Shown here: positions 8,719 to 56,938 of the stretch, piece by piece
Layout of the letters: every line of letters begins with the position of its first letter
How positions within the stretch are numbered: the first letter of the stretch is position 1
Assembly: GCA_903813345.2 (NCBI GenBank)
Contig: CAIIXF020000008.1
Span: 27,266,822 to 27,330,821 of the forward strand
DNA: 64,000 nucleotides
Direction of reading: 5' to 3'
Source of the DNA: Owenia fusiformis
Taxonomy: Eukaryota > Annelida > Polychaeta > Sabellida > Oweniidae
The notes under the pieces: generated by a model
Told to the model about the DNA's origin: nothing
Database searches by the model: none
Seen by the model: only the letters and a program-made list of their open reading frames with translations
Translations under genes and position numbers: made by a program

Positions 8719-11700
8719 ATGGCAGTCCAAGATTTCTTCCGAACCATGCGGATTACACTGCTATTGACATGGTTATGCATATCTTGTACAACATGCAAAC
8801 GATCTGGAAAGACACCCAACATCGTGCTATTCTACGCTGATGACCTAGGCTATGGGGATTTGTCTGTATATGGACATCCCACCCAAGAGTTTGGTCCTAT
8901 AGATCGTATGGCGAGAGAGGGGACACTGTTTACTCAATGGTACTCTCCGGATACGTTGTGTACTCCTAGCAGGGCTGCACTACTAACAGGTAAATAATCA
9001 CCTCCTAGCAGGGTGTTACTGCTAACAGGTAAATAACCAGCATGTCCGCTCCTAGCAGGGTGTTACTGCTAACAGGTAAATAACCACCATGTCTACTCCT
9101 AGCAGGGTGTTACTTCTAACAGGTAAATAACCATCGAGTTTACTCCTAGCAGGGCGACACTGCTAACAGATGAGTAACCGCCATGTTTACTCCTAGTGGG
9201 GCGACACTGCTAACAGGTGAGTCGAGTAACCGCCATGTTTATTCCTAGTAGGGCGACACTGCTAACAGGTGAGTCGAGTAACCGCCATGTTTACTCCTAG
9301 TAGGGCGACACTGCTAACAGGTGAGTAACCGCCATGTTTACTCCTAGCAGGGCGACACTGCTAACAGGTGAGTAACTGCCATGCTTACTCCTAGCAGGGC
9401 GACACTGCTAACAGGTAAGTAACCGCCATGTTTACTCCTAGTAGGGCGACACTGCTAACAGGTGAGTAACCGCCATGTTTACTCCTAGCAGGGCGACGCT
9501 GCTAACAGGTGAGTAACCGCCATGTTTACTCCTAGCAGGGTGACACTGCTAACATGTAAATAACCACCATGTTTATTCCTAGCAGGGCAGTACTACTTAT
9601 ATGTCAAAAACCACCATGTTCACTAAAAATTGAAAGCCTTTATTGAGGCAATGATCTGTTGATTTATTTTCTCAGGTCGTTTACCTTTACGTAGTGGATT
9701 AATAGGTGGCCTCAGAGTTCACCTGCCATCTGTCACTACTGGACTACCTTTGGAGGAGACGACGCTTGCCGAGTCGCTGAAAGACCTGGGATACAAAACT
9801 GGACTCGTCGGCAAGTGGCACCTTGGTAAGATCCTAACCACATCGTTGTATTTACCTAAGGAAAATTATCAAGATTTACACAGGGAAGGGTAAAATAATC
9901 TTGTAGTTTTGTGTTGTGGAGGGTGGACTCCTCGTCCCGCTATTGATTGTTAGCAATTTATATTTGTATTTCATGTGGTTACTTGTAGGTATCAACAAAG
10001 ATACGTATAAGGATGGCTACTACCTACCAGGAAACCATGGTTTTGACTATGTGGGAACATACCTTCCTATGTCTCTGGCCTGGGACTGTGACACAAGTGG
10101 GGTAAGGCCCAATTTCAGTTCTTGCTCAATACGAGTCATTAGAAATACAATTATGAGTAAAATTTAAAACATCAAATTGTATTTTTTATGTTGAACTGTA
10201 AATTCTTCCTGAATAATTTTTTATTCATAGCTTCATAAGAAGGAGCCAAGGAGAAATTATTGTGTGCTGTACAAAAATGACAGCATTGTTCAACAGCCAA
10301 TCTACCTCGACAACATGACAGCAGCGTTCGTGGAGGACGCTAAAGCTTTTCTTTATGACAACGCGGATTCTCCCTTTTTCTTATACTTCCCCCTTGCCCA
10401 AACACATACACCCATGTTCAATGACGTGCGATTTGCAAACAAATCAAAGAGAGGTAGGTGACTTGAATTCATAGTTCGTTCGTTTGATAGTACCTCGAAC
10501 AGCTACTTGAAAATCATGTTACAGTTTTGGCTATCCTTTCTCCAATTTAACGAAATATAGTTTATCATTATATCAGCTGGTCAACAGGTCAGTCATGACT
10601 TTGTAGAATATAACGAATGCACATTATGGCTCATTTTGAAGTTTAGAGAATATCAAACGGCATATTATTTCCATGTTTTACAATTGCAAGTATACCATAT
10701 TTGATCATTTTAATTTTCATGTTTTCCTACGGGTGTTTGCACAATGCTTATGACACATTACGATACTTATTATGCAACTTATAACAGGGCCATATGGTGA
10801 CCAAGTGCTTGAGATGTCATATGCTGTGGAAGAAGTTCTTAAGACTGTAAAAGAGCTGGATTTGGATGAACACACTCTCAGTCTTTTCATCGGTGATCAT
10901 GGGCCACATATTGATATTTGCAATGAAGGAGGTTCATCTGGAATTTTCAAAGGTATGGCCTGGCCTTTCTTATAAATATCAGTTGTCGGGTTTGGTACCA
11001 ATCTTATACGCTTATCATTTAGGCCTAGAACAAACGAGCGAATGGGCGAACTATAACAAACTCAGGCCTCCTAGACTTCCAACAACGCGAACATCAGTTC
11101 TGATACCGCGAACTACGTACAAGAAATATGTTCGGAAACAAGGAAATAGTGGTGCGCGACATAAGATTTCACGTTCGCGATATGAGATTCATGGTTCGAG
11201 TGCAAGGAACGTAGTTCGCGGTATTAGAACTGATGTTCGCGTTGTTGGAAGTCTAGGAGGCCTGAAACTAATTCATGGCTTCTCAATATTTGTTCGGAGT
11301 GATATTGTTACGATATTTTTAAACCATGTAAACTTTTATTATCAGGTGGGAAAGGTACTTTCTACGAAGGTGGTATTCGAGTACCAGCAATAGCCAGGTG
11401 GCCTGGCACTATACCACGTGGTGGAGTATCCTCAAAGCTTATATCCTCATTGGACATCTTTCCTACACTACTAGATATTGCTGGTGGGACGTTAAATAAA
11501 AGTGTAATATATGATGGCACAAATGTCAAAGACAGCTTACTTGGTTCAAATGATAACGAGGGCACCAATGACATCCCAGAACCTGAGGAAGACTATAAAC
11601 ATCATGATATACTATTCTTCTACTGCGATGATACACTCTTTGCCGTGAGATATAAACAATTTAAAGTTCATTTCTACACGAATGTAATCCCAGGTCCTAA

Positions 11701-12376: not shown

Positions 12377-15300
12377 CTACAATTGTGATGGGTTTACATC
12401 TGGCTGATAGTCGACTCTATCAATTGATGAATGAAGTCCTCGAGCGCTCAGATCATTCGTAGCATCCAAATGTCTCTCCACTGTTGCGGCTGGATTAATT
12501 TCTCCAACAGCAGTTTCGTAGTCCATTGGAACAATGTTTTTATCATCTGCAGCGTCACTGAGTTCAGTATTTTGACGTCCATATAGGTAAGCGTTACTGT
12601 CTGGTAATGTGTCTTTAGATTCCTTGCTTTAATAGTACAAGAGAAGAAAATTATGAGGATTGCATTTACATTTCAATTTGCTAAATTGTATTAAAACCAC
12701 ATAAATGTTAAACAAATAGATAATGATGCGGATCTTTCACATGATATAGTTAGGAAATGTAGCGAAGTGCACTTACAAGAAGGTAGCAAACTCAAGAAAT
12801 CGCTCTAGAACAATACTATTACTCACCGTTTCATCTTTCTTCCTCGGTATATGATGCAGCCAAGTATAGCAGCGACCACTAGTCCAACAGCAACGGTTAT
12901 AACAACTATTGCCCAAGTAGGTAGCAAGGGTTCAGGCATTGGGATAGATCTCTTGAACTCAAGTGGAATTCCTGAAAGAGAATACAAAATCGCAACTGCA
13001 CAATTCAACAAAACATTACAATCGTCAATTTAAAATTTCAGTAACATATAGGTATTGAGTTGAAATTAAGAAAATTGGAGTAATGTAGCATAGATCTATA
13101 TATCGATTGTCTTGTTAAGAAAGTTTCAATACTTTCAAAAGTTTAGTTATTTAAATTATCAAAACTTTTGAAAATTTCGCACGTAATGCTGTCAGCTTTG
13201 ATCTTGATTATACACTGTTTCAATTACTTCGACATGTGGATATTCTCACCTGTTGTATACTCCGAACACAGTGCTTCAATCTCTGGCTTCTCTCCATTAA
13301 TCTTTTCATATCCTTCGTAGTTAAAATCAAACTTACAACTCGCCCCAGTCACACTCCCAGAGTCCACAGAAAACTCACAAGTCCGCGGATATGGACTCTC
13401 TGCGTTATACCAGTCTTGTTTACTCCACCTCCAGGCTTGCAGGCCATTGCCTTTCCGCCAGAATTCGTGTCCATTACCAGTGGCGTGAAGTTCAAACTCT
13501 CCCGTCTTTCCATACGTCATTTCTAGGACATCATTAGTTAATGTTACTTGAAAGCATCCATAGCCTGGTTGTCCATAGTAACCTACATATTTCTCCAAGG
13601 CCAACGCCGGATCAAGGTCAGTAGGAATGGATTCCGGGAGCGCCTTGACTGCTGTCCGCCAGGGTTCTGGATAGCTACACCCAGTGGTTGTGTTCAACCA
13701 AGGAACGTCCCCATTCAAGACATCAAGAATGTATATGATGATTGGAAAAATGGCATTTGTTTGTTCGACAAATTGTCTACCATTTGTGTGTAAGAACAAG
13801 GCCAAGTCTAAATCGGGCCAGATGACAACATGGGTCCGGTAATAAGCATAACTTCCGGGATGATGAAGCATCACATATCCTACAAAGATACAGACAATGG
13901 TGAGATGATGATCAAGTGTCACCAACTTCCACATAAACAGATAAGGAGAAAAAGTGAAACATAGGGAACAATAATTACACCAGACATTGAATATTTATAA
14001 AAGTTCTTGGTGTTACTATAAATAATGTTGTTTCAGTATAAAACAAACGTGCATTGCCTTTTTGGTATCCCTTTATCCATGCGAATCCATATGCACCACT
14101 GGAGAATCCCGACGGGAATGTAGGCCGAGGTAGTGTAAAGGATTTACGGGTAAATATGTTCCAATTTTCCTTCGTGATCCTCAACTTGGATTCTTCAATG
14201 ATTTGCTGTCCGGCTTGATTTTTCCCATTATTTAAATGCATTTGAAGATAATTTGCCACATCATTTGCATTAGAGGCTACCCCCGCTCCACCCATCATGT
14301 GGCCACTCTGACTGAAACAGAGAAATTTAAATGCATATGGAAGATACTTTGCCAGATCAGTTTCATTAGAGGCTACGCCCGCGCGCTCCACCCATCATGT
14401 GGCCACTCTGTCTGAAACAGAGACATTTAAATGCGTTTGAAGCTAATTTGGCATATCATTTGCATTAGAAGCTACGCCCGCTCCACCCATCAAGTGGCCA
14501 ATCTGGCTACAACATAGACATTTAATTGCATTTGAAGATACTTTGCCATATCATTTGCAATAGATTAAGTCCATTTTTATCGGATTCATCGGTGTTTTTA
14601 GTCTTAACTCCGCAGTGTATATCTCACCTCGTTCACTAGTATTTCACCAATACATTAAATAATTAATATATATATTAATCTTTTTTGCAGAAACATATCT
14701 TAGTCTACTGGAAGAGGACCACTTTATCCACTCCATTGGTATTTCCACGAAGGCACTTGCTATAAGCAGGAGATAATCTTCTTTTATGCATACCTTATAA
14801 ACGCAGGAGTCACTTCTACATCTGATCTGCCATCAGGACCAGTAGTGTAGGCGTGGGAAAATCCATATATTTCTGTAGCTTTTGACACAATGTCCGAGTC
14901 TGTCATACCCAGTGGGTTAAAGATGTATTCTTTCATCAGCTGATCAAACGATTTACCAGTTAATTTCTCTAAAGCCTTTGAGACGACGAGGTAACCTGTT
15001 GTAGAGTAATGCATCCCAGTTCGAAATCGCCATTGACATTTGTAGTGTTTGAGATTTCTAAAATCAGTTTAAAGGTAAGGGGTATTTAGAGATTATCATA
15101 TACGAGGTTCAGAATTTTTGAGATTATCCCGCAGCAAGTATTATATATCTACTGTACCCGAGGGCAGACGAACAGCCACTCAGCCCCGTAAAGCTACAAG
15201 GTAAGCCAAAAAATGTTAATAACTCTGTCATCGAACATGGATTAAAAATCATATTTGGCACAACTAAACCTTGTTCAATGTACTCTTATTCTATATTTCA

Positions 15301-18610: not shown

Positions 18611-21600
18611 CTACAATTGTGATGGGTTCGCATCTGGCTGATATTCGACTCTAACAGTTGTGGAGCGGGGCCCTCCAGCACTGTCTGTATCACCAGTGCT
18701 TTCATTCAGATCATTCATAGCATCCAAATGTCTCTCCACTGTTGCGCCTGGATTAATTTCTCCAACAGCAGTTTCGTAGTCCATTGGAACAATGTTTTTA
18801 TCATCTGCAGCGTCACTGAGTTCAGTATTTTGACGTCCATACAGGTAGGCGTTACTATCGGGTAACGTGTCTTTAGCTTCCTTACTTCAATATACAAGAG
18901 AAAAAACATATTAGGATTGCAAAATATTAAAGACCCACTTTGCGTATTTTCAATGTTTTTGGGCAAAATAAAGACTTTTATTTGAATTTTATAGAACGTC
19001 CAATGTATTGATAAGAACCTTTCATTTGACACCAACAACAGCTCAAACGGACCACATCAAAGCTAACAATAATTTATCAAAAAATATTTTCGATCTACCA
19101 AGCTTTATATAGTACTATCAAGTTTTTATCCATGTCATTGAAAGATGGCGAATTCTTATTATCATACATTCATTTTTATAGAGGTGTAGCCATCTTTTAA
19201 ATCAAAAGTGATTTAAATCATGCACTTTGTTTAGCATGTGCATGCACTACTAATGATCTCTGAGCCTTTTCCTACGTGCGTTTTTTTCTTGGCTCAATAT
19301 TCAAGCAAATCAAACTTTGTTTCATATTTGAGTGAGTGTGTGAGTAACATGTTTCAATAATAATTTTTTTCTTTGATTTGGTCTTATTTCCAAAAAAATG
19401 TCAAAACACATAAGAAGTGATCAAAATATTATTTCAAAACATTTGGATCGCTGATTAGGAATTCATAGTCAGTTATAATGTCAGAAAATAACGACATTCT
19501 CGATGTTGTGGTCGATCAAGTTCAAGGCCTAGGTTGAATATCGAATTGGAAAGGGGGCTCTGGTAACAATAGTTTTTACTCACCGTTTCATCTTTCTTCC
19601 TCTATATATGATGCAGCCAAATATAGCTGCGACCACTAGTCCAACAGCAACGGTAATAACAACTATTGCCCAAGTAGGTAGCAAGAGTTCAGGTGTTGGG
19701 AGGGGTGTTCTTGACTCAGACGGAATTCCTGAGAGAATAGAAAAATCGCAACTGCGGAATAGAACAAAGCATTCCAATTGCCAGTTTCAGATTTTAAATA
19801 GATTCAGTAATATTATAAATATTGGAAATGTCAAAATTGGACAAATGTAAAATGCATGTAGACCGAGACGTGAGTATATCAATTGTCTTGTTATGGAAAG
19901 TTTTTTCATACACATAAAGTGTGATCTTGATTATACACTGTTTCAAAATACTTCGACATGTGGATATACTCACCTGTTGTATACTCCGAACACAGTGCTT
20001 CAATCTCTGGCTTCTCTCCATTAATCTTTTCATATCCTTCGTAGTTAAAATCAAACTTACAACTCGCCCCAGTCACATTCCCAGAGTCCACAAAAAACTC
20101 ACAAGTCCGCGGATATGGACTCTCTGCGAAGTACCAATCTTGTTTACTCCACCTCCAGGCTTGCAGGCCCTTGCCTTTCCGCCAGAATTCGTGTCCATTA
20201 CCAGTGGCGTGAAGTTCAAACTCTCCCGTCTTTCCATACGTCATTTCTAAGACAGCATTAATTAATGTTACTTGAAAGCATCCATAGCCTGGTTGTCCAT
20301 AGTAACCTACATATTTTTCCAAGGACAACGCCGGATCAAGGTCAGTAGGAATGGATTCCGGGAGCGCCTTGACTGCTGTCCGCCACGGCTCTGGAAAACT
20401 ACATCTGGTTGTTGTGTTCAACCAAGGAACATCCCCATTCAAGACATCAAGAATGTATATGAAGTTTGCAAAAGTGGCATCGATTTGGTCAATGAATTGT
20501 CTACCGTTTGTGTGTAAGAACAAGGCCAAGTCTAAATCGGGCCAGATCACAACATGGGTCCGGTAATAAGCATAATTTCCAGGATGATGAAGCATTGCAT
20601 ATCCTATAACGGTACAAAACATTGGTGATGTAAGACCAATAAGTCTTGCCTCAAGACTAAGTAACTCCCATGCATACTTTCCAATATTCAACATATGTGT
20701 TGAAAGTGAAGTACAAGGGGTATACACCTGTATACAGTCTTGAAGCAAGACTAGAGACCAATATATAAATGATGGAATATCACCAACCACATAACGGGGA
20801 AATAGTGAAACGCAGAGAACAATATAATTACATCAGCGATCATCACATCATTACTTCAGTATAATCAAAATGTACATTGCCTTTTTGGTATCCCTTGATC
20901 CATCCAAACCCATATGCCCCACTGACCAATCCCTCTGGAAATGTAGGTCTGGGTAGTGAATAAGGTTTATACTTATAGACATTCCAGTTTTCTTTCGTGA
21001 TCCTCAAATTGGATTCATCAATGATTTGCTGTCCATCTTGATTTTTCCCATTATTTAAATGCATTTGAAGATACTTTGCCATATCATTTGCATTAGAGGC
21101 TACACCCGCTCCACCCATCATGTGGCCACTCTGACTGAAACAGAGATATTTAAATGCATTTGAAGATACTTTGCCACATCATTTGCATTAGAGGCTACAC
21201 CCGCTCCACCCATCATGTGGCCACTCTGACTGAAACAGAGACATTTAAATGCATTTGAAGATACTTTGCCATATCATTTGCATTAAAGGCTACGCCCGCT
21301 CCACCCATCATGTAGCCACTCTGGCTACAAAAGAGACATTTAAATGCATTTGAATGTACTTTGGCTTATAATTTGCATAAGAGCCTACGCCCGCTCCACC
21401 CATCATGTGGCCACTCTGGCTACAACAGAGACATTTAAATGCATTTGAAGATACTTTGCCATATCATTTGCATAAGAGCCTACGCCCGCTCCACCCATCA
21501 TGTAGCCACTCTGGCTACAACAGAAACATTTAAATGCATTTGAGGATACTTTGCCATATCATTTGCATAAGAGCCTACGCCCGCTCCACCCATCATGTAG

Positions 21601-24274
21601 CCACTCTGGCTGTAACAGAGACATTTGACTCAGCACTGCATATATCTCACAGTGTATATCTCCATTATCTTACAAGTATTTGAATGGGGTGTTACCTAAA
21701 CTAAAGGATCAATACATTAAATAACTTATAATATATCAATACATCTACAGAAATATATTCCTAAGAAAAAACGTAGGGGAACATGGGGCAAAACGGCCCT
21801 CTGGGGCAAAGTGGCCCATCGAAATATCTTTTGAACTATGAAAAGGTGGTTCTTCAAAAGTCACATAATCGAATTTTGAAATTGCTGCCACCTTCTCGAC
21901 CGCCCATTTTTAACCAAGCAGCGTCTCGCTTTACGTAAGAGGTAATTCTACTTTTCACCCTCTTTTTTGTAAATTACCCCTCCCACGAGAATCTCTAAAA
22001 AATCCGGCAACAATACAATATCGTTTTGATTTAATATTTTACATAGAGTATGCACATTTATCCTTTTTTTGTAAAAATTTCGAGCTTCAAATATTAGGCA
22101 AATTAAAATGACGTCTATTTGAAAATTCACATGTCTTTGGGGCAAAACGGCCCACACATGTTATAAACATACAAAAATCTTATTGTGCAAGAACAATTGG
22201 TTTTCAAATATAACAATTTTAACATTTGGTTTGTACCTTATTTCCTTCCGACACATATCGAATGACTAGAATTATGGTAGGGGTTAAGAATACTTTATCT
22301 GTCAAAGGTTTGAACGTCTGAGATAAGATGTGTGTGGACGATTCATGTAATTGATTAATTTCGGTTTTAAAACCCATGTAACAGAGGGTGGGCCGTTTAG
22401 CCACACCCATGGGCCTTTTTGCCCCACTCTCGACAATATTTTTGACCATTGAAAAATCACAGAAGATAGTCCTAGGAAAGTATAAAACACTCGAAAAATG
22501 TAAACCACAAACCATTAATAAAGTTGAACATCAAACTGCGCGATGATTGACAGATAAGAAAATACCCCGTACAGAACAACTTAAAATTAAATTTTTAGGG
22601 CCGTTTTGCCCCATGTTCCCTTACGTCTGTTGGAAGACGACAAGATTCTTTATCGGTACTTCACTATAAGGCACTTACTATAAGCAGGAGATAATCTTCT
22701 TTTATGCATACCTTATAAATGCAGGAGTCACTTCTACATCTGATATGTCATCAGAACCAGTTGTGTAAGCGTGGGAAAATCCATATATTTCTGTAGCTTT
22801 TGACACAATGTCCGAGTCTGTCATACCCAGTGGGTTAAAGATGTATTCTTTCATCAGCTGATCAAACGATTTACCAGTTAATTTCTCTAAAGCCTTTGAG
22901 ACGACGAGGTAACCTGTTGTTGAGTAATGCATCCCAGTTCGAAATCGCCATTGACATTTGTAGTGTTTGAGATTTCTGAAATCAGTTTATAGGTAAAGAT
23001 ATATGATATTTTTATGATATTCATAACATCTTTACCGATAAATAAAGATACATTTAAACATTACTTCCTGGCAAACATTTGAGAGCAGTAAAAGTAGATG
23101 GTCCTAAAATCTATATTCTTCACTTGGCAAACATCTGTACATGTTTGTGTATTCGTTTCCGTCTTTACAAATTGGATGTCAATATTATTTACATTAAAAT
23201 GGTAATATGTCAGTATAATTGTTGAGTATTAAAAGTGTTTTTGTAATTGTGTTGACCTACTTATTTTAAGTAGAAAAATGCAGCATGAATACATGCCTTG
23301 ATTTTTATAAGTCATTACCTAAAAACTTTATGGCAATTTATACGACTGTTTTATAGCACTTGCTTATAACAAGAGACATTTGAAAATGTTTGAATACGAT
23401 CAACGGGCACATGTGAGCTACCCTCGTATGTTGTATCTTTCATGTCTTCCAATATCTGAATATGCCGTTTGAGATATTTTGCCATTGTTAATAAGTATAT
23501 GCATGGTGTTCCAAAAGTAACAGGACTAGCACTGGTGCTGAAATTTCGATAATTTTACACCATGTGTCTTCTTTTCACAAAATGTACGTTGACGCATTGA
23601 GACTGAGATTGTAAAGTTTCAAAAATATCATAAAATCCAGATAGAGTTATGGTTACCTCGTGAACTCATCAGGTGACATAACTTGGAAGCTCTCAACAAG
23701 GACTTCGGGAAAGTTACATCCACTCTTCATGGCCAAGAAATCTTTCAAACTCGCATATTCCGTTACCAAGGGATCAGATGTATTGAAGTCTTCTCCCATG
23801 ATGGCTTGCAAGCGCGTGTCAAAATCTAACCTATAACATTGTAAATTGCCTTGAATAAATGGGGGAAATCTAACCTGATAACAAATTATTTCTACTCTAC
23901 CAATAAGGGCATCCTTCGAATATGTTGTAATGTGGTGCTAAGGCTCACCCACTTTGGTTGAGATCAGAAAGGACGGCTGCAACAAGCGTCGAGAGCATTC
24001 CCTTTGAGATCGACTGAATAGAAGTTACTGTCCTTTCAGTCATCGGTGTTTTCTTCTCGATGTTTGAGAGACCGTACCCCTTTGCCATGAGCACTTCCTC
24101 ACTAGTTACCAATGCAATCTGTAGACCAGGAATATTCCGACATGCCATTGTCTCCGTTAGAAACTCCTCAATAGCTGCAAGCTTTTGCGGGTCCAATTGG
24201 GCCATCACTTGTGGCTTTATCACCATCGCAGTCCATGTTGTTAATAATAATGTCCGATATGCCCAGAAACGCAT
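18611..24274 (-). CDS. membrane-anchored serine beta-lactamase-like protein, copy B, about 690 aa
   Basis: Exons in transcript order: 24274-23949, 23830-23657, 22975-22712, 21134 to about 20855 (3' edge unresolved), 20603-19974, 19728-19584 and 18884-18611. All exons except 4 and the last have the same length as in copy A. The SISK and HYSTTGY motifs, the C-terminal domain and the membrane helix (WAIVVITVAVGLVVAAIFG) are kept. The signal peptide starts MRFWAYRTLLLTT. The cytoplasmic tail is eight codons longer than in copy A and its last third has diverged, while the middle of the tail is nearly identical. Introns differ strongly by transposon insertions. As in copy A, the exon 4 donor is not resolved. 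Both copies keep open frames throughout, so both may be expressed. Confidence 0.85.
18925..19375. mobile_element. diverged, inverted copy of the 7.1-kb piggyBac-like MITE
   Basis: The stretch is similar over almost its whole length to the reverse complement of 7126-7598, including the 'gcatgtgcatgcacta' segment. One end reads TTAAAGACCCACTTTGCG; the other has decayed. It sits in the last intron of lactamase copy B and is absent from copy A, so it inserted after the gene duplication. Confidence 0.75.
21040..21625 (-). repeat. tandem copies of the exon 4 start of lactamase copy B (about 6 units of 94-95 bp)
   Basis: The first unit is the real exon start (acceptor at 21135-21136). Five further copies extend upstream in the intron, with a period of 95 bp between the first two. 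Each contains an acceptor-like TGTTTCAG or TGTTGTAG, then codons resembling S-G-H-M-M-G-G-A-G. The period is not a multiple of three, so using an upstream acceptor would shift the frame. Confidence 0.9.
21776..22621. mobile_element. 846-bp non-autonomous DNA element with 'GGGGAACATGGGGCAAAACG' ends
   Basis: The left end GGGGAACATGGGGCAAAACG at 21776 is the inverse of the right end CGTTTTGCCCCATGTTCCCT at 22602-22621, and TA dinucleotides flank both. Further internal 'ggggcaaaacggccca' motifs lie in both orientations. No transposase is present. TA flanks would suit a Tc1/mariner-like origin, but that is inference. Confidence 0.7.
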
Positions 24275-27948: not shown

Positions 27949-28015
27949 ATATTGCTCAGGTCGATATAGTAAAATGAACGCCTTCTAAACTAGCACTAAA
28001 ACCCCTAGAACTGGC

Positions 28016-28188: not shown

Positions 28189-28189
28189 C

Positions 28190-29660: not shown

Positions 29661-29662
29661 AC

Positions 29663-32600
29663 CTCAACACAGCTATCTACCATCATGTCTATGGTGAGTT
29701 GTTGTTGTTGTAATATCTGCATGTTGTATTCTAAAGACACAAGTATCTGCCAATAGTTCTCTTGTAAATCTTGCTCACTGAAAAGCAGTCAGATATTTAG
29801 CATGTTTGTGTAGTTTTCACTTGTAAATACATTTCTATTATAGCTTCTATTTAGCTCACTTTATATATAATCTATGTCATTGTTGTGTTTGGACTGAATC
29901 CTGGTCACAGTTGTGTTGAGATAAGATTTAGATGAGTTGTGTTAGAATTGTAATCTGTGTTATTGTTCCATAATACAAACAAAAAAATTGTAATGCAGTT
30001 GTGTTGGGGTCATCTTTGTCGTGCCATCTTTGTCACAGTTGTGTTAAAATTTCAATATGCGATACGATTGTGGTGGGATTGAAACACATGACACCATTCA
30101 GTCGGGATTGCAATTTATTACATAGTTTAGATTGAACTGCAGTCTCTTGCTAGAGTTATGTTGGGATTGCAATCTATGTCAATGATTTATGTGGCAATTG
30201 TGTTGGGATTGCAATCTATGTCAATGATTTATGTGGCAGTTATGTTGGGATTGCAATCTATGTCAAAGATTTATGTGGCAGCTATGTTGGGATTGCAATC
30301 TATGTCAATGATTTATGTGGCAGTTGTGTTGGGATTGCAATCTATGTCAATGATTTATGTGGCAGTTATGTTGGGATTGCAATCTATGTCAATGATTTAT
30401 GTGGCAGTTGTGTTGGGATTGCAATCTATGTCAATGATTTATGTGGCAGTTATGTTGGGATTGCAATCTATGTCAATGATTTATGTGGCAGTTATGTTGG
30501 GATTGCAATCTATGTCAATGATTTATGTGGCAGTTGTGTTGGGATTGCAATCTATGTCAATGATTTATGTGGCAGTTATGCTGGGATTGCAATCTATGTC
30601 AATGATTTATGTGGCAGTGTGATGGGATTGCAATTTTCATTCAGAATTTATTTCAGTCTAGTCATGTATAGGAAAATATGCCAAGTACCATACGCTACAA
30701 GACACAGTCCGATAGTCTTACCGCTTTGATAACTCAGGGTACAAGTCACACATATCCTTTCTTGGAGGTCTGGGTGCTGCTTCACTGGAGATACTGGAAC
30801 CATCTGATAAATCTGGAATAGTTATCAATCAATACTACTGTTAAAGTAGACGTAATGTGATATGTCAAATCTTGCCTGAGAACTCAACTCTAACCTGAAG
30901 ATATTGAGGTGTCAAGCCAAACCTGATGATACTGAGATATCAAATCTGACCTGAAGATACTGGGATGTCAAACCTGAGATGAAGATACTAGGATGTCAAA
31001 TACGACATGCAGATACCATGGGCTTTCTATTGAATGCCCATGCAGATACTGAGATGTCAAATCTGACTTGAAGATACTAAGATGTTAAATCTAACCTGAC
31101 AATACTGAGATGTCAAGTCTGGCCTGCACATACAGAGATGTCAAATCTGACCTGAAGATACTAAAATGTCAAATCTGAACTGAAGATTCAAAGATGTGAC
31201 CTGAAGATACTAAGATGTCAAGTCAAACCTGAAGATTCTGAGATGTCAAATCCGACATGAAGTTTCACTGAGATGTTAAACTTACCTGAAGACGCAGTGA
31301 TGCCAAATGGATCATCATCACCTTCATCCTCATCTACAACCTGTAAACACACAAACATACAAATCTACCATTCATTCCTTGAAGAGATCATAGCTATTTC
31401 AGTAATTTTCCATTGCATGATGCTGCATTAACAATTGAGCCAGGGCACTGGAAAAGGGGTCTTATTATGAACTGATTTTTTGTCTATGTTAAATAGCACA
31501 GAGACCTTTCAAATGAGCCATGGCTTATGTTTTATAACAATTTTATCTTGCAGATATAGACCAAAAAGACGAATTTGGCATATTTTGGGCACATTTCTGG
31601 CTCTAGCACAATTTTAATTTTTGTGATAAGACCGGTTTTCCTATGTACTGTCTATATTTTGGGAAGATTAGTAGAATGACTGGATTCTGGGGAATTACTT
31701 ACCGTAATTATAAAGATTATTTAGTATTATTAATTGCAATATCAAACCTTTTTCTTGTGTTTCTTTGCTTCATTAGCCGCTTCTAGAGTAAGTTGAAAGT
31801 TGTCAACCAGTACAGCAACAAACAAACTGCAAACAAATATACATGGTGTCCATTCAGTATTTTTACAATTAAAATACAGTCTATGTAAAGTGTACACTTT
31901 ATTGACATCATATGCTAATTTTTAGAGTCAGTTGAAGCCAAATATTCAAGTATTTGACTCGGTGAAGATTGTTGTATTAGAGGGTACTGTAAATGTGCAC
32001 ATATAATGCCTTGGTCACATTTGCTCCGATTTTCACTACGGCGTCCGGGCGATTGAGTATTTTGTTCAAAATTGAATACAATATTGAGCAAAACACTCAA
32101 TCAGCCAGGCGCCAGCTATGATCAGAGCAAATGTGACCAAGGCATTAAGTAAATTCCATAGGTTTTGGGCTGATATAAAGATGGCAGCGGTGTTGAAGCT
32201 ATCAATGTATCATTTTAGTGCAGTAAAACCTGTGTAAGTTGAAACACCTTTGGTACCTATAAAATGTGTTCCACTCAGGTGTCACTGTATAGATAAACAC
32301 AGATTGATTTGAAAATCATTTCTATTGCACTTTAGCTTATGGAAAATTTAGTCATAAAACTGATATAACATTTGATCAAAATTCATTCTGCATGTTCAGC
32401 TATGATGCTAGAAATTATGTACACCATTTACTTAAATGCACATATGGGTATATAAACTGGTATATAAGTTATTTCATGAACATCATCTAATTTAACCATA
32501 ATGACCATTATACTTCTTGCTTATGGTTAGATTAAAATAATGAAAAAGTGACATTTGTATAGACCCAAACATAACTTTCACAAATACATGTAGAGTAGCT

Positions 32601-37086: not shown

Positions 37087-37793
37087 CTTTACACATTTCA
37101 CTATGGCCCTCCTTCGTCAACCTGTAAGTGAAAAATCACTTCATAAAGTTTTTAAAGTACAGGCAGGAGAGCAAGGAAACAGAGGGAAATACATAGAGAT
37201 GTCAAGGAAATAAAATCGGAATGGTTCGGTTCAGGCATTTTCCTTCGGAATGGAACAATTTTGGAAGGGTTCGGAATAGAGTGACTGCGTGTATTAGATT
37301 AAAATAAGTTGATTACCTAGGTCTATTTGGTAGCAAAAAGTTCTTCAAAACTCTTCAATGAGAAGGATTGAAAAGAATGATATTCTTTTGGTGCAAAATA
37401 TTGAAAGAAAATGCTGTTTAATGGCGACTTAAGGGCCACAAGTTGTGAAAGGGTAAGATTTTCTTGTTCTGGAACTGAACCGAAATTGTTAATTTTTGTT
37501 CCGTGTTCTGTTCCGAGAGCGCAATTCCACGGTTCCGAACAAAATTGGGTATCCATGACACCTCTAAAAATACAAGCTTCATAATGAGAAGAAAATGCTT
37601 CCATAAATTATGGGCATGAAAAATGTTCTTTAACTTTTCCAAGTGTTATTTAAATTCATGACTTTTGGATAGTTTTAACCCTGGGGATTTAACGTCATGA
37701 GGACAAGTTGGGAAGGAAAGACTCCCGGGGAAAGACTATGGGCTGTCATTTGAATGGTTCTTGTTGTTGTTGGCAGTTGATTTGACTAATAAC

Positions 37794-48000: not shown

Positions 48001-51000
48001 TATTAAATGCCATACCCCTATTTGCAGTGTATTAAAGGTCATATCTGGAAAGAATTGCTGCTGTTAACATGGCCAAGGGAGACACGGCGACCATTAATTT
48101 TGTGTAAAACTAAACTTTAATTTTGGTAAAACACTACATTTTGAAATGTGTGTAACTTTTTCCCGTTTGTGAGTTGAACCATGATACTTGGCAAATCAAT
48201 GTAACTTTGGACAAGCTTTGAAATGATATATGACACATACTATGGGGACATTGGTGTATGTCTGCCTAGGGGGGGCCCCATACTTTCGGGACACCCTGTA
48301 TATACAGAAATGTAAACTTGCAATAAATAAATAATAAACAATAAATAATGATTTTTTATGTTACCACATAGTGTCATAGTCTCCTTTTTGTGGACGGTTT
48401 TTGGCAGTCAGTAATCAGTGGTTGGTGTTAAGTGCTCAGCATTCAGTGTCTGTAATAAATGGCAGGGGGTGATGTTTTGCATGTTAATGTGTTGTTTAAT
48501 TAAGCAATATTTTGACTGATGATTTCTTTGTTACAGAGGCTGTTAACTCTATCACAAAAGCTATAGACATATACACAGATATGGTAAGATACTCTTGAGA
48601 AATATATCATTATTAAAATCAATGATTCATCACCCTTAGCCTGATATATTGGTTAATGAAATCCTGTGCTAGGGCTGATGTGAAAAAGTCAGTTCACCCC
48701 ACTGGGGATCGAACCCATGATCCCTCGCTTTATGGGTGCTTGCTAAATATTGAAGGCTGAAACATCATTTGTCTCTGGGATAGGCAGGGAACTAATATTT
48801 ATAGTATTTTGAAGAGATTAATAAATTTGAACAAGCGTACCCAAAAGATTTCCCAAGGGGAATGACTTTTGCATATGGATGAATTTTTGTGTTCGATGTT
48901 CCAATCCAAGAGCCTAATTCTTTGGGTCCACAGGGGCTTGTCTGGAAGGTCAGGCAAGCCCTCCGATGAGTGTACTGGTTATTAAGAGTATAGTCTTATT
49001 AACCAGTTCAACCCGCCCCTCCAGACAAGCCCCTGTGTTTGGGTCAGAACAAAATCTGGTAAAGGTGACACCTCTAGTACTATATTTGTTATATTGATTT
49101 TGATAAAAGAAATACAAAAGAAACTTAATCATTAGCTAGTTTAATTCAATTACAAATCCAATGTTAATTTTCTGAATGTAAACAATGGCTTTCTATAGAA
49201 ACAAGAACACATGTATAAAACTGACCATGTTGCTAACTTTGTTATAGGGAAGGTTCACAGTGGCAGCCAAACACCACGTTACAATTGCAGAAATCTACGA
49301 AACAGAAGCTGTTGATATTGACAAGGTATGGCTCTCATATATTAATATAACATCAGAGCTTCATGTATGTGTGTTATGTTGACTTAACAAATTAGGAAAG
49401 GTTAGTCTAGCTACAAGCCCTTGTCCCCCCACAATACACTTCTCCCAATGTGAGAATTTGTAATACCTGTGTAGTTAAGTAGTGGGAGGGGGGAGGGTCA
49501 CAGGGGCTTGTAGCTAGTCTAAGATATGGTCTCTCAGAATGGTTTATTCCGATCCTAATAATCACATTTTTTACTATTTTATTTTGTAGAGTTGTACTGG
49601 TTATATTTATTTCCTTACATTCCACTTAAGAACAGAGTCAATCACAGTTAATGCAATGGATGATCTAGATGTAGCGTTACTTTGTATAAATGTAGTTCAT
49701 TTGTAGTAGCCCATGCTGAGTTTAGGTTAGGGAGAGATTTAATGGTTAGAGTTGACCATTGGAGAAAATGATAGTGGTTAAATGAACCAAACTATGATCG
49801 ACCCTACCTTAAATGATTGCAAAATAAATCCTGTAAGTGGAACACCTCTGTAAGTGGAACCTTGTAGGTGGAACATAGAAAGTAGAATACTGTTTAGAGG
49901 GACCAAAGGTGTTCCACTTACACAGGTTTTACTGTACTTTCTTTCTTTGTTTTGTAACCTTAATCAGCACCATAGGGGCTACAGTTAGAAATGTAATAGC
50001 CAGCTGGCCCACTAAGAATGCCACCAATCTATCGAGTCCCCATGTCCCCAGGGCATTATCACTATAGAACACACCCAGATAGATGGCAGAACCTAGAGCT
50101 GTGAATTTGGCGAAAGAATATACAGCATGGTTGATTGTCTGCCATTTTGATTCTGAACTGATTCCAAATTCTGATGGCCAGATTGTGATAGCATAGTAGA
50201 TAGGTGGCAGCACGAAAACTGACATCACAAGTAGAGTGTAAAAGACCTGAAAAATAATTCAAGAACAGACTGTTATATAATTTCTAGAACAGTGAAACCT
50301 CTCCCAACTCACATATATCTATGTAAGGACAGTATATAGAGGATTCATGAATTGAAGGAAAAATAAGTTAACCTCTTGAATCCAAGGCTCTAAAATTGGA
50401 TGAAACCAGAGAATTTTTCATTTTTGTCATCTTATGACATTTCACTTATACTTTTGAAAATTGAAAATTGTTCAAATAAGAGCAATTTCAGTGAAAAATT
50501 TTGTGACAGATTTTCTCGTCACTCTTGGTTTCAAGGTCATTTCTGGGGTGACAAGAAATCTCGTCACTCCAGGGTGTCAAGAGGTTGAGACTGTTATATC
50601 GAACAGAGCAAGGTCTCAACTCACTTACTAATATATCTTTGTTAAGAAGAGTATATGAAGGACTCTTGAATGGTCTATTGCTTTACAAAGCTGGCATACT
50701 TACCTGTGATTGGAAGAAGTCCACCAAAGGGTATGAAACATTGTTCTGCCAATCATTTGCATCACCTGAAAATAACACTCAATACAATAATTGTCTAATT
50801 AAGTATCCATTAAGCTAATTACAGAGAATATGGTATCTTGTGTTGATGATGTTAGCTATACGTGTGAGGTACAAAGTATTTGCTGGGTCTCGTTTCATAG
50901 AAAAAGTAGTAATGAATCATTTAAGGGAACATACCTGCGTAGAGGAACCTGTCGTAGCCAAATGACAGTATAGCAAACATACAGGTGTATGCCCCCACCC

Positions 51001-54000
51001 AAAGTGTATGTGCTAGCAGCTCTTGGTTCCCTTTGATACACTTGTAGGCCAACACATAGCCCAGCACACCTGCATGAAAATACAATGACATCTATAGTGC
51101 AACACAATACCCAACATACATGAAAATACAATAACTTTCAATGACTTATGGGTACATCAGTTCCAATTTAGTAATTTGTTTATAATGAAAATCCCACATT
51201 CAACATCTGTATTTGAAAATATTTGTGACTTTGAGAGATAGTCAAGAGTCCCAACAGTCTCTCATGTATATATTGTGAAAGCATTAAAAAGGCACCTGAG
51301 TAATAGATGAATGTGTACTTGCCTAGTGATATGTTTGTGTGGGCAAAGAGACACGGCCAGATCCCATGCATGTCTTTGCTATAATGCCACATCGTCTCCC
51401 ATCCACAATGCTGCCACAAGAGGTAAATTCCAGATGGCGCGAAGATCATGCTGAGAAAACATACAGTGAAGACAAAATACTTGTTGACAAACATTGAGTT
51501 GCTATATTTGATTCCTTTGGGTGCACTGGCCGCGAATTGAGCCCCCATTGCAAATGACCAAAACACATCTACTTGAATCATATTGGAGGATGTAGACTGC
51601 TGCTCAAAGAGTAGTTCTATTGCTGCTCAAAGAGTAATCCTTCTGCTGCTCAAAGAGTAGTCTTTTAGCTGCTCAAAAAGTAATCCTTCTGCTTCTTAAA
51701 AAGTAATCCTACTGCTGCTCAGAGTAATCCTACTGCTGCTCAAAGAGTGGTCTTATAGCTGCTCAAAGAGTAATCGTTCTGCTTCTTAAAAGTAATCCCA
51801 CTGCTGCTCAGAGTAATCCTACTAGTGTCTTTATTAAGTAACATATGTGTAACTTCACAAACTTTGTTCTCAATTTCCCATTAGTACTTGTGAAATAAGG
51901 TGTTAAAATACCAGACTAGTTTTGATGAGGCTCCTATTAATTAATTATTAATGAAAGAGATAGGGGTATCCCTGGAGTAGTAGTTCCCTTTATATTATAC
52001 ATCCTGTGTATTTTGATATTGTATATGATATCTTTATTTGATTTATGCTACTTTACATATTCTTGAAACAGATTGACTGGTTGACTTTTTGCAATTTACA
52101 ATATCATAATACATAATCAATTTTTTGAAATCAAGATGAGACTAGCTTTTTTCAATCTCATAATCTTAAAGATTGACCTAAGAATGATTAGTGCTGCTGT
52201 CTTTAACATTGGATTAATATTGCAATAGGTCTTGTTGTATTGGTGGACTTTTGATTATTAATGTGTTTGTCCTTGCATTAGGTCTTCTTATGACATTGAA
52301 CTTCTGTACTATCTCTATACTAATGTTAATGTGTAATATATTATATGATAATATACATTATACAGTTCACACATAGCAAGGGAAGGTGTGTCTGATTCCA
52401 ACCAGTCCGAACACAGTATTTCATTGGATTATATAACTAATCACTGCACCCAAGGTCAATTGTTGAATGGTTGTCAAGGTGACAACTTTTTTTGACAACT
52501 TGACTACATGCATTGAAATTGATGCTTTGCTAACTTGACCCTTGCAAAAAATTTCATTGAAAAATATGTTCTTTTAGTGATTTCTTATCCAGGTCCAGGC
52601 CATAATACTGCAACAACTTACTTTCTGCAGGGTTTCAGTATTCCTCATATTCAAGAAAGCAATTTGGTATATTCGTTTGGCATACAAAGCTTATGAGTTA
52701 AAATCAATACTTTATATAATTCCTCATGTTACATCAAGTATTATTTGGTAATGTAGAACTGATCCCAATAGACCCAATCCAGTCATATCTATCATATTAG
52801 ATCAGTGATCTATTTATCAACTTAAGTGAGATGGACAGCTATCAAATAATTCTAGTACTTGACTATAGCCAACTATGATCTTGGTTATATCCTTTATAAT
52901 AAAAGCCTTTAGCTATGAAGTTTATATGTTAGGGGTTAGCCCTTCTAAAACCTTTTAGGCACCTTGTACTTGAAGGCTGTAGTCAAGTATGAATTTGATA
53001 CTTGAAGGCTATAGCCAACTATGGACTTTATACTTACAGGCTATAGTTAACTATGAACTTTATACTTACAGGCTATAGCCAAATATGAACTTTATACTTG
53101 CAGGGTATAGCCAACTATGAACTTTATACTTGCAGGATATAGCCAAATATGACATTTATACTTGCAGGCTGTAGCTAACTATGAAATTCATACTTGCAGG
53201 CTATAGCCAAATATGACATTTATACTTGCAGGCTGTAGCTAACTATGAACTTTATACTTGCAGGCTATAGCCAAATATGAAATTTATACTTACAGGCTAT
53301 AGTCAACTATGAACTTTATACTTGCAGGCTATAGTCAACTATGAAATTTATACTTGCAGGCTATAGCCAAATATGAAATTTATACTTGCAGGCTATAGCC
53401 AACTATGAACTTTATACTTGCAGGCTATAGCCAAATATGAAATTTATACTTGCAGGCTATAGCCAAATATGAAATTTATACTTACAGGCTATAGTCAACT
53501 ATGAACTTTATACTTGCAGGCTATAGTCAACTATGAACTTTATACTTGCAGGCTATAGCCAAATATGAAATTTATACTTGCAGGCTATAGTCAACTATGA
53601 ACTTTATACTTGCAGGCTATAGCCAAATATGAAATTTATACTTGCAGGCTGTACCTTTCTATGGACTTTATACTTGCAGGCTATAGCAAACTATAAACTT
53701 TATACTTGCAGGCTATAGCCAAATATGACATTTATACTTGCAGGCTGTAGCTAACTATGAAATTCATACTTGCAGGCTATAGCCAAATATGACATTTATA
53801 CTTGCAGGCTATAGCCAAATATGAAATTTATACTTGCAGGCTGTACCTTTCTATGGACTTTATACTTGCAGGCTATAGCAAACTATAAACTTTATACTTT
53901 GGAGGCTAAAGCCGAATAAGAAATTCATACTTGAAGGCTATAGCCAATTTTAACTTTATACTTTCAGGCTATAGCCAATTATAACTTTATACTTGTAGGC

Positions 54001-56938
54001 TATAGCCAACTATGAACTTTATACTTGCAGGCTATAGCCAACTATAACTTTATACTTGCAGGCTATAGCCAACTATAACTTTATACTTGCAGGCTATAGC
54101 CAACTATAAACTTTATACTTGCAGGCTATAGCCAACTATAACTTTATACTTGCAGGCTATAGTCAACTATAACTTTATACTTGTAGGCTATAGTCAACTA
54201 TAACTTTATACTTGCAGGCTATAGTTAACTATGAACTTTATACTTGCAGGCTATAGCCAACTATCAACTTTATACTTGCAGGCTATAGTCAACTATGAAC
54301 TTTATACTTGCAGGCTATAGCCAACTATAACTTTATACTTGCAGGCTATAACCAACTATAACTTTATACTTGCAGGCTATAGCCAACTATGAACTTTATA
54401 CTTGCAGGTTATAGTTAACTATGAACTTTATACTTGTAGGCTATAGCCAACTATGAACTTTATACTTGCAGGCTATAGCCAACTATGAACAAGCTGCAGA
54501 CTATTACAAAGGAGAAGAGTCCAATAGGTGAGAAATATCTTATACATTTAGTTATACATATGTTTTTTTATTCTACGAGCATGTACATTAGATTCAGTTT
54601 CTTAAATGAAAATACAAGACATTCATTAATAACTGCAGTTTGAAATTTTCATACACTGGACAAAATGCAATTGAGAATTCCCTGGAATTTCTAGTATTTT
54701 ATATTCTCTTAATATCTTTAACTCCCCCTCCCTTACTATGATAATATAGTTATTATGTCATCACCAGATCTGGTGACATATTGCTGTAGTCTCTAATTTT
54801 TTGTATATGATGTTTGGTGGTTGGTGTTTGGCAGTCAGTGATCGGCATCTGTAACAAAACTTTTGGAACAAATACACAAATAGGCTTAATGGTTTTAACT
54901 ATGTTTTATTTTGTACTTTGTTTTAGCTCTGCGAACAAATGCTTATTAAAAGTGGCCACATTCGCTGCACAGCTTGAACAGTACAGCAAGAGTATAGAGA
55001 TTTATGAACAGGTAGGTTCTGACTGTAACTCTACAGTGATCTCCCCAGCATTAAAGCAAGTGGGTGCAACACCCACATGAGATTTTGAAAATAGGCTTGC
55101 ACCCACCTGAAAATCTATTTGCATCCACTTGAAAATGAGAAAAATCATGAAAAATCGGCATATTTGACCAATTATGGTCTGAATTGTGAAAATGAGAATT
55201 TTGCACCCACTTGAGAAAAAATCCTTTGGATATCACTGCTCTATGCAAATAAATGTTGGATGATGTTAGCATGCCCACAGCCAGGTTTTACTAAGGAAGG
55301 GTTCACTTTGAAAAAAAATTCAGGGGGTCTACATTTGACAACTTTGACTCAAAATCACTTGGAATCTGCTCAGAATGGTGAAAAGGTGTATGTTTTTGCC
55401 CCAAACACCCAGGGCTATGGGCCTGATAGTGTTGCATGCTATACAGATATTCCATTCTATTGCAATGAACATCTGGCTCACTTTCATTAATGAAATAAAA
55501 TAGAATATTTGTTTTATTATGCAATGTTATACACCTCACTGATTGGGTCATCATCAATAACAGCAAGCTAAATATAGCTTCTGACCACAACTTATTTACT
55601 ATTGGGTTATCGTTACATTTTTTTAGGTGGCAGGCAAATGCATTGACAATAACCTTCTCAGGTACAGTGCGAAGGATCATTTCTTCAGGGCCGCCCTGTG
55701 TCACATGAGTTTAGACAAACTTGATGCAAAGATTGCTTTAGACCGCTATAAAGACATGTTCCCTGCATTTGCTGATAGCAGAGAGTGTAAGCTAGTTCAG
55801 GTAGGCACCATCCTATTAAACATTATACAATTGTTGACCTCTCCAGAGGTCAACCGGCAAAATTGTATACCGAGACTGTAAACCAAGAAACTACTGTTGA
55901 CAGAGACCGAAGGTCGAGGTCAACAGTAGTTTCAAGGTTTACAGTCGAGGTATATGATTTTGACGGTTGACCGAATTGAGAGGTCTACAATTGTTTTGTT
56001 AGTCCGAAGAAACTAATAATACACATATAGACGAAAATCATCAATCGGCATGGCTTCATTTCACAATCTTTTCTCAGAACCACGTCAGCAATGCGTACTC
56101 ATAAGTAAATTAATGTCAATTTTACGTTTTTTATTTGTATTTATGCAATACTTGTCATCTAGTAAAATCAAATATCACTTTCATCAACGTTTACAAAATG
56201 TCCATCTACCATGTTTTTTCTGTAAACATTATGACGTCATAAAACTTATTTTTCAAAAGTTTCGGTCAACAGTACATATTGTTGACTGCTAATCAACCAA
56301 TCAGAATCTAGTATTTCAGTTGAGGTACTAACAAAATCATTCACAAATGGGTTGCATGGAAAATGTGCAAGCAATATTTTATATGCACCAACAGTTACAC
56401 AGGTATCTCCTTATAATGCCATTTGGGAAGGTGTTTATCATGAAATTTGGGTTTCATCAATGAGTTGTATACAACAGCGAGTGTGTGAGGGTCTAGATAG
56501 CCATATATGTAAACTGCTCATTTCATGGAAAGTTTGTCCCAATTACTTTTTACCACTTCCAGAAAAATGCAAAATATGCTACCTCAGAATGAAGATAAAT
56601 TGTCCTTTTTCTATTATTTTTATGTCACCAACAGAAGTGAAGACATATTTTTATAGTCTCCAACTTTTTTGTGGACATATTTGGCAGTTGGTGTTTCATG
56701 GTTGGTGTTAGGCATCTGTAACAAATGGCAGGTGATATCTCTAATTAAAAAGTATATATTGTAAGTAATGAAAATATGTTTATTCCAGACCCTACTAGCT
56801 GCATGTGAAGATGAGAATGTAGATGCATTCACAGATGCAGTTAAAGAATATGACTCAATCTCTCGGCTAGACCAGTGGCTGACTACCATGTTATTAAGGA
56901 TTAAGAAAACTATCGAAGGAGAAGGAGACTTACGATAG
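39088..56938 (+). CDS. NAPA: alpha-SNAP (NSF attachment protein), nine exons, 291 aa
   Basis: Exons: 39088-39176, 46328-46407, 46940-47056, 48537-48583, 49248-49325, 54472-54527, 54927-55011, 55627-55800 and 56789-56938. Total 876 nt, all GT-AG, all phases consistent. The product begins [20 protein letters not shown] and continues with TPR-like helical pairs ([43 protein letters not shown]). It ends with [20 protein letters not shown] and LR, the conserved C-terminal helix and Leu that stimulate NSF. The FFGSFG loop in exon 1 matches the membrane-contacting loop of alpha/beta-SNAP. It recruits NSF to SNARE complexes for disassembly, in the cytosol and at membranes. The length matches the family (about 295 aa). 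Intron 1 is 7.2 kb and intron 5 is 5.1 kb; intron 5 hosts a gene on the other strand and a large array. Confidence 0.97.
39650..40425. repeat. dispersed repeat beginning 'ACGAACAAAGTTCGGTAGGG' with CCGT-rich head
   Basis: The head has AAAGTTCGGTAGGG, then a short array of 'CCGTCAGTCCGT' type. Two internal modules of about 110-150 bp are repeated (ATTATACTCAAAT and AAAATTCAAAATGGC). The tail ends with TTGCTACTCCGCGGAGTTGC. It is a typical interspersed repeat with no coding frame. It lies in alpha-SNAP intron 1. Confidence 0.55.
40534..41232. repeat. left arm of a large (about 700 bp) inverted repeat in alpha-SNAP intron 1
   Basis: The arm is the reverse complement, with moderate divergence, of 45231-45925. 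Shared landmarks include CATGGGGGTACTTTAATACC, GCATGTCAGATATTCATTG and ATTTAATTAGCATCTACT. The arms are about 4 kb apart. Confidence 0.85.
42030..42520. mobile_element. hAT-like MITE, 491 bp, with perfect 8-bp target duplication
   Basis: Terminal inverted repeats TAGGGCTGCCATC and GATGGCAGCCCTA are flanked by identical ACTGTATT at 42022-42029 and 42521-42528. Eight-base target duplications with this end type are diagnostic of hAT elements. Subterminal GTCGAC motifs are repeated at both ends, as transposase-binding sites often are. The open frames inside on both strands show no transposase similarity. Confidence 0.88.
43055..44290. repeat. cluster of hairpin-family fragments
   Basis: Fragments include AGGATAATCTCTATTCG (43165, minus), CCCTCGGGACCTACGACC (43095), a palindrome GGGAAATACAATATACC / GAATATTGTATTTCCC (43920-43970) and the tail at 44090-44280 matching 26.93-27.17 kb. 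No gene is seen. Confidence 0.6.
45231..45925. repeat. right arm of the large inverted repeat in alpha-SNAP intron 1
   Basis: This is the inverted partner of 40534-41232, with similarity possibly extending about 30 bp further out on each side. It could be two copies of one non-autonomous element in opposite orientation, or the ends of one large foldback element. The 4-kb spacer has no transposase frame. Confidence 0.85.
47231..47536. mobile_element. 306-bp MITE with CAGGGAGATATGC ends in alpha-SNAP intron 3
   Basis: The ends CAGGGAGATATGC and GCATATCTCCCTG are perfect inverses. The interior is made of TAGTACTAAAT, 'gtactcatttag' and related short inverted modules. No coding frame is present. 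Confidence 0.8.
47625..48335. mobile_element. foldback-type element with about 180-bp inverted ends, alpha-SNAP intron 3
   Basis: Inner ends CAGGGTGTCCCGAAAGTATG (47656) and the inverse at 48279-48298 continue inward for about 140 bp as an inverted pair. The inversion also runs outward through TTGCAAGTTTACATTTCTG to about 47625 and 48335. No coding frame is seen. Confidence 0.8.
48690..48750 (-). repeat. tRNA-derived B-box relic
   Basis: On the minus strand ATGGGTTCGATCCCCAGTGG is a near-consensus B box with a flanking stem. No full cloverleaf is visible. It is probably a SINE fragment. Confidence 0.35.
48929..49038. repeat. 110-bp hairpin with ACAGGGGCTTGT ends
   Basis: ACAGGGGCTTGTCTGGA and TCCAGACAAGCCCCTGT form the outer stem, and ACTGGTTATTAAGA / CTTATTAACCAGT the inner stem. 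A related hairpin lies at 49408-49517. Confidence 0.7.
49408..49517. repeat. 110-bp hairpin with AGCTACAAGCC ends
   Basis: The outer stem TAGCTACAAGCCC pairs with GGGGCTTGTAGCTA. ACAGGGGCTTGT at the right end relates it to 48929-49038. Confidence 0.65.
49815..49936. mobile_element. small MITE of the 'CAGTAAAACCTGTGTAAG' family overlapping a stop codon
   Basis: The right end (minus-strand reading) is CAGTAAAACCTGTGTAAGTG, with inverted 'cctgtaagtggaacacc' copies at the left. The same end type occurs at 32220-32290 and 36056-36515. The end contains the stop codon of the nested 257-aa gene. Confidence 0.65.
49929..51581 (-). CDS. multi-pass membrane protein of unknown function, four exons, 257 aa, nested in alpha-SNAP intron 5
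   Basis: Exons in transcript order: 51581-51323, 51069-50935, 50765-50704 and 50246-49929 (774 nt including stop). Phases agree throughout. Intron 1 has a GC donor (CTAG/GCAAGT) with a normal AG acceptor; the alternative GT a few bases away would break the frame. I do not recognise the family. About six hydrophobic segments are visible, with conserved-looking aromatic and charged loops ([39 protein letters not shown]). It ends in a basic tail ([10 protein letters not shown]). The start is the first ATG in the exon. Open frames across four matched exons make a real gene likely. It lies on the opposite strand between alpha-SNAP exons 5 and 6. Confidence 0.82.
51597..51820. repeat. about 22-bp tandem array just upstream of the nested gene's start codon
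   Basis: Units of CTGCTGCTCAAAGAGTAATC type run away from 51598, about ten in all and partly degenerate. On the minus strand the array ends 20 bases before the ATG with TTTGAGCAGCAG, which could act as a 3' splice site for the first coding exon. This is tentative. Confidence 0.75.
51830..52960. other. alpha-SNAP intron 5 sequence without recognised feature
   Basis: AT-rich sequence that may hold the promoter of the nested gene on the minus strand. No exon or repeat family is recognised. Confidence 0.4.
52966..54471 (+). repeat. minisatellite copying the alpha-SNAP exon 6 acceptor, about 45 units of 31-32 bp
   Basis: The unit is TTTATACTTGCAG followed by GCTATAGCCAACTATGAA. That is exactly the last intron bases, the AG acceptor, and the first six codons (A-I-A-N-Y-E) of exon 6, whose real start at 54472 is the last unit. 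Units vary mainly at 'gccaac/gccaaa/gtcaac' and 'tgaac/taac'. Nearly every unit keeps TTGCAG or TTACAG. With a 32-bp unit, splicing at the penultimate acceptor (TTGTAG) would read into TAG after 12 codons. Confidence 0.93.
55270..55432 (-). repeat. dispersed C-rich repeat copy in alpha-SNAP intron 7
   Basis: The stretch has CAGCCAGGTTTTACTAAGG at one end, 'CTGCTCAGAATGGTGAAAA' inside and CCAGGGCTATGGGCC at the other end, the hallmarks of the 38.4-kb family. Confidence 0.6.
55821..55997. mobile_element. inverted-repeat hairpin element in alpha-SNAP intron 8
   Basis: Arms of about 75-80 bp pair well, for instance CTGTAAACCAAGAAACTACT with its near-inverse at about 55923-55945. The loop AGAGACCGAAGGTCGAG resembles the other hairpin-family loops. 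An ATGACGTCAT palindrome follows at 56231-56240, then CAACCAATCAGAATCTAGT. Confidence 0.75.

Follow-up and report, generated by a model that had tools for sequence, protein, structure and literature searches.

The annelid Owenia fusiformis carries, in five genes within 64 kb of its genome, minisatellites built from the host gene's own splice junction. In each of the five arrays, the repeat unit consists of the end of an exon, the splice site, and adjoining intron. The same junction anatomy recurs in unrelated genes elsewhere in the assembly, where solid arrays lie at exon edges in excess of random placement. We consider it likely that these are mirage-type minisatellites, born by tandem duplication across an exon edge, which later grew and were tolerated. 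Mirages have until now counted as an oddity seen in a few amphioxus genes.

The window, i.e., the whole stretch of 64,000 nucleotides that was analyzed (C8:27,266,822-27,330,821), belongs to an assembly of 498 Mb in 525 contigs, ~477 Mb of which are in 12 contigs of 31.9-62.2 Mb each. The genes recognized in it encode a YhhN-family protein, a sulfatase (Pfam Sulfatase, PF00884), two β-lactamase-like paralogs designated A and B (Beta-lactamase, PF00144), CatSper1 (Ion_trans, PF00520, with CatSper1 as the best PDB match), and α-SNAP, which was identified by tblastn using the human sequence as a query. Arrays were detected with Tandem Repeats Finder (TRF), those with a period of at least 20 and a score of at least 100 being termed solid, and overlapping rows were merged by hand. 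There are 11 solid arrays in the window: five at an exon edge, one possibly so, and five (at 30154, 36145, 40031, 43027, and 62018) at no recognized edge, the exon annotation of the window being partial. A previous sequence-only reading of this DNA had proposed that arrays abut the exon edge and splice site in five genes, with unrelated units of 28, 32, ~47, and ~95 bp. The TRF rows and our reading of the DNA agree with this on both counts (Table 1).

Table 1. Junction arrays of the window and associated exon features (window positions)
Feature	Position	Strand	Description
Sulfatase exon 1 end, source of the 47-bp unit	8962..8989	+	Real donor CAG/gtaaat
Sulfatase donor array	9002..9588	+	TRF: 47 bp x 12.3
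Lactamase A exon 4 acceptor array	14230..14564	-	TRF: 95 bp x 3.5
Lactamase B exon 4 acceptor array	21053..21626	-	TRF: 95 bp x 6.0; unit of lactamase A
CatSper1 acidic-exon donor array	30876..31292	-	28 bp, diverged
Possible sixth case	51596..51823	-	23-bp array ending where a minus-strand open frame starts
α-SNAP acceptor array	52967..54490	+	TRF: 32 bp x 47.9
α-SNAP exon	54472..54526	+	First exon base 54472

In the sulfatase gene, the end of exon 1 encodes a sulfatase signature and reads ...CTAACAG/gtaaat (exon in capitals, last exon base 8989), and the unit comprises this exon end, ACTCCTAGCAGGG...CTAACAG, followed by ~19 intron bases. The α-SNAP unit is made of 13 intron and 19 exon bases, and that of the lactamases of ~20 intron and ~75 exon bases, the acceptors of lactamases A and B lying on the minus strand at ~14307 and ~21130, respectively, where the AG can be placed only to within 4 nt. 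CatSper1 is the weakest of the five cases since its array has diverged (28-bp TRF row at 30892-31292 with 71% matches, last exon base 31286). Of the 24 positions of its exon tail plus GT, 19 nevertheless agree with a decoy, while none of 2,000 shuffled tails does as well. In the possible sixth case, the minus-strand open frame has no Pfam match, and the array sits in the position of either an acceptor or a 5′ untranslated region. As judged from protein homology, the working junction is the one predicted at the exon end of each array, and the extra copies would be intronic.

The lactamase genes point to a derived origin of one array. A 201-base probe covering exon 4 of lactamase B together with the exon edge, nearly all of it outside the array, matches three places in the assembly: lactamase B itself, its paralog A (81%), and, at a distance of 8.5 Mb, a third copy (76%; locus L077), which has the same junction without an array. 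Copy number thus runs from none in L077 to 3.5 in A and 6.0 in B, the comparison being among paralogs. Because the arrays of A and B have a second unit type (ttgtagCCAG) in common and L077 has no array, the array most likely dates from the interval between the branching of L077 and the split of A and B, its length having changed since. The alternative is that an array was lost in the third copy.

How often junctions elsewhere carry such arrays was measured in a sample of 84 loci, hand-picked before their sequence was seen, comprising 59 kinase, 8 CCT chaperonin, and 17 kinesin regions. The kinase regions hold 68 of the 144 matches listed. Unplaced contigs, whole-domain matches, genes nearly duplicating one another, and the majority of the weakest matches were omitted. 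The CCT regions hold 41 of 60 matches and the kinesin regions 66 of 144, the latter being 16 clusters of at least three matches within ~6 kb plus L078, which has two matches; at least one cluster fitting this rule (C1, ~42.97 Mb) was omitted. Exon edges were called blind to arrays, from the ends of HMM matches, the open frame, and splice-site scores. An edge array was defined as a solid array that extends across an edge by at most one unit, and the expectation was taken from 20,000 random placements within the loci. The edge caller was altered twice after HMM matches were seen to enter arrays, and only the kinesin count used a rule fixed beforehand. Raw HMM ends (kinases, 1/16 arrays at an edge versus 1.65 expected; CCT, 5/6) were rejected because matches ran into the arrays, and a first splice-site scorer, which missed edges, was also dropped (kinases, 4/17; CCT, 3/6; together 7/23 versus 2.37 expected, 87/20,000 placements as high). 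The caller that was retained combines a retrained splice-site scorer with a distance term.

Kinases and CCT genes together have 209 called edges and 23 solid arrays, nine of which are at an edge versus 2.56 expected (8/20,000 placements as high). CCT genes alone account for five of six arrays versus 0.77 expected (0/20,000), and kinases alone for 4/17 versus 1.80, which is not significant (1786/20,000). For kinesins, under the frozen rule, five of 13 arrays are at one of 125 edges versus 1.99 expected (468/20,000). Over all 84 loci, 14 of 36 solid arrays are at a called edge versus 4.55 expected (Poisson, 2.8e-4), and the array-bearing edges are 14 of the 334 called (4%). The sequence-only reading had suggested looking for an excess of arrays at exon edges; on these 84 loci the excess stands overall, whereas the kinase subset does not reach significance by itself. 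Five more arrays are at uncalled exons, three of which were read in the DNA (L012, L015, and L037) and two judged by eye from the unit (L080, 2563-2927; L089, 4075-4393), bringing the count to 19/36. The junction anatomy seen in the window is found again in kinases that by eye are PAK-like, MEK-like, CDK-like, and CDKL-like, in CCT subunits, and in kinesins, so that, in line with the earlier proposal, junctions are expanded beyond the window as well. None of six tektin loci, which partly overlap, contained an array with a period of at least 12. A broad hot spot near exons was also considered and found no support: the 11 off-edge arrays of kinases and CCT genes are no closer to an edge than chance (median distance of 271 versus 284 nt), so the excess sits at the edge itself.

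Two loci deserve a separate description. An 18th kinesin region, L095, was taken because the match list showed an array and stands outside all counts. At 546-3389 (G000:C2, ~23,266,345-23,269,188), a kinesin exon that by eye is KIF4-like carries on its acceptor side ~18 tandem units of 159 bp with 97% matches, ~130 bases of each unit being exon-derived. The tandem kinase matches of L062 (901-1210) were rejected as a mirage. They are two differing copies of a GSK3-like catalytic-loop exon, ~30 bp apart, with the look of a mutually exclusive alternative pair.

The closest known counterparts are the mirages of amphioxus. Canestro et al. (2002) reportedly described them originally, in Adh. In the excerpted account of PMC3087553, they are minisatellite-like tandem duplications of exon-intron borders in BflGb6, BflGb9, and Adh3, on the donor or acceptor side, with units of 10-160 bp, unstable in length and somatically, whose mechanism is unclear and whose splicing is regular as suggested by RT-PCR; amphioxus PGBD5 also has one, according to part of PMC3902484. 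As in those descriptions, the Owenia unit spans the exon edge and splice site on the donor or acceptor side, and has a gene-specific length, and the array has the real junction at one of its ends. The distal copies are more alike one another than the real junction copy in lactamase B and in the PAK-like kinase, which is a further likeness. Several genes with unrelated units are involved, each unit being exon end, splice site, and intron. Hosts of mirages as described are cephalochordates, which this host is not, and host range is outside the definition. Owenia differs from what these sources relate in belonging to another phylum and in having its frequency per exon edge measured, and some of its arrays are long by comparison (48 copies in α-SNAP, ~18 of 159 bp in the kinesin). 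Contrary to the earlier suggestion of a genome-specific process, the arrays are not unique to this genome, since equivalent structures have been published in amphioxus (PMC3087553 and PMC3902484, as excerpted). In a literature search at the level of titles and abstract starts, which is no proof of absence, no recognizable report of mirages outside amphioxus was found, and the term was used for such arrays only in those two papers. At that scope, what is new is the presence of mirage-type arrays in a second animal lineage, together with a measured frequency per exon edge.

More distant parallels exist, again as far as excerpts of the sources go. Human segmental-duplication genes have internal tandem repeats at exon-intron borders (PMC2812944), which are likewise minisatellites at gene borders able to alter gene structure. 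These are described in recent primate paralogs, half of them within coding exons, whereas the Owenia arrays are mostly in conserved housekeeping-type genes whose coding sequence is apparently intact. Intron gain by tandem genomic duplication (PMC4974935) similarly involves tandem duplication of sequence bearing splice sites, but the Owenia arrays lengthen existing introns and we identified no new intron. In another annelid, the earthworm, metallothionein genes have intronic minisatellites and duplications of the fourth exon that are missing from the transcript (PMC12783039). These unused extra exon copies could be related to the Owenia arrays, although the excerpt does not state a tandem unit across the splice junction.

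How might such arrays form? We propose that a segment of ~30-160 bp across an exon edge is first duplicated in tandem, the founding event being perhaps end joining or fill-in of a staggered break with little microhomology. In two-copy edge arrays, the total length minus twice the unit is 0 (L073), 2 (L070), and -1 nt (L016); it is -12 nt in L069, one end of which is eroded. Extra copies would then multiply and homogenize as in any minisatellite, by slippage or unequal exchange. The copy adjoining the exon body would stay the working junction, with the others carried as intron. Because that copy remains the working junction, the protein would be unchanged, and because one intact junction remains, the arrays would be tolerated, splicing presumably ignoring decoys through exon definition. 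The preference for edges would act at the founding step rather than through later retention. The leading ideas for this approximately threefold preference are breaks or strand exchange that halt at the limits of exon homology, or a link to transcription and splicing.

A related scenario, which we regard as unlikely yet the best of the alternatives, makes exons islands of homology. If the genome is very heterozygous and outbred, only exons would pair well during repair, exchange would end and re-copying start at exon edges, and splicing would be uninvolved. That both donors (six) and acceptors (eight) are affected among the 14 blind cases (one-sided sign test, 0.40) fits this, as does amphioxus being likewise a species of high genetic diversity. 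On the other side, the little microhomology at founders favors end joining. Even placement, in which there is no special process and edge duplications are merely tolerated and more recognizable, has a somewhat smaller chance still. It fits the kinase subset alone, and the edge count expected under it is not zero (4.55 of 36), but it has to accommodate the 14 edge arrays observed, or 19 with those at uncalled exons, and the CCT count (5/6 versus 0.77).

It had also been suggested that decoy splice sites might be selected to tune splicing, and parts of the data look favorable to this. The AG is present in all 48 acceptor copies of α-SNAP, one of which is the real site at 54472, and 24 of the 47 decoys score at least as high as the real acceptor. 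In the sulfatase array, the G of GT is kept in 12 of 13 decoy passes and seven decoy donors, scoring 7.0-8.0, surpass the real donor at 4.7. Moreover, the exon-derived half of the α-SNAP unit varies more than the intron-derived half, as would fit retained decoys, and a tttatactt stretch is almost invariant; the difference between the halves, seen in α-SNAP alone, was given little weight because the copies are related. When 16 arrays were pooled (five from the window and 11 from elsewhere), however, the splice core of decoy copies was as variable as the rest, with 35 of 191 columns variable versus 140 of 805 (Fisher, P = 0.75). Decoys therefore look neither kept nor purged, which leaves the suggested selection without support. 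Use of the nearest decoy would, moreover, introduce a stop in several genes, as the sequence-only reading had pointed out and translations agree: it would produce a stop at amino acid 92 in the sulfatase, a premature stop after ...MHLNISVSVRVAT in lactamase B, and a premature stop in α-SNAP, while in CatSper1 it adds no stop. On balance, we find selection for decoys improbable.

Tandem arrays are difficult to assemble, but the copies within the window edge arrays differ (69-93% matches by TRF) and paralogs A and B have their second unit type in common, which makes an assembly artifact very improbable. Insertion of a transposon or another mobile repeat at junctions, already doubted in the earlier reading, can be practically dismissed: each gene supplies the exon and intron bases of its units, which are not the same from gene to gene, the lactamase exon 4 probe matched three lactamase places, the α-SNAP array flank (downstream exon and intron) matched only itself in the assembly, and nothing in these comparisons speaks for it.

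With duplication, growth, and toleration as the preferred reading, exon-edge arrays are common enough to bear on intron growth and on the origin of new splice sites. If a few percent of edges carry mirages, there is either a mutational process at edges or genomes that permit arrays to build up. More tentatively, and with the odds somewhat against it, a formation bias at edges may have given ~4% of exon edges an array, which by extrapolation from 14/334 might mean thousands across the genome. Such a bias may be common to distant animals of high diversity and may continually fuel intron growth as well as the birth of splice sites and introns. The arrays are also numerous natural experiments on how splicing passes over tens of good decoys beside the right site, and they may mislead gene prediction.

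Several minor observations were made in the window and beyond. The CatSper1-like channel gene occupies ~28000-37200 on the minus strand. An array at 30154-30634 (42 bp x 11.5, 95% matches) lies off edge, ~90 nt beyond a CatSper1 exon; its period is divisible by three, and two frames remain open through it. A membrane-protein-like gene on the minus strand (49932-51626), which has no Pfam match, appears to lie within an α-SNAP intron on the opposite strand. A cox1 search of the assembly, intended to reveal the mitochondrial code, gave no match, and a comparison of tektin with PDB entries put 8snb first by a narrow margin only, too little to place the organism. Two microRNAs regarded as lophotrochozoan-specific were searched for, and their presence speaks for such a host. 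The miR-1992 23-mer has one match, with two mismatches near the 3′ end (none for the reversed control), in a strong hairpin (z of -4.4 to -5.6), while the miR-1994 20-mer has two exact matches (none for the control), located 2 kb apart at G000:C1:56576417 and 56578354.
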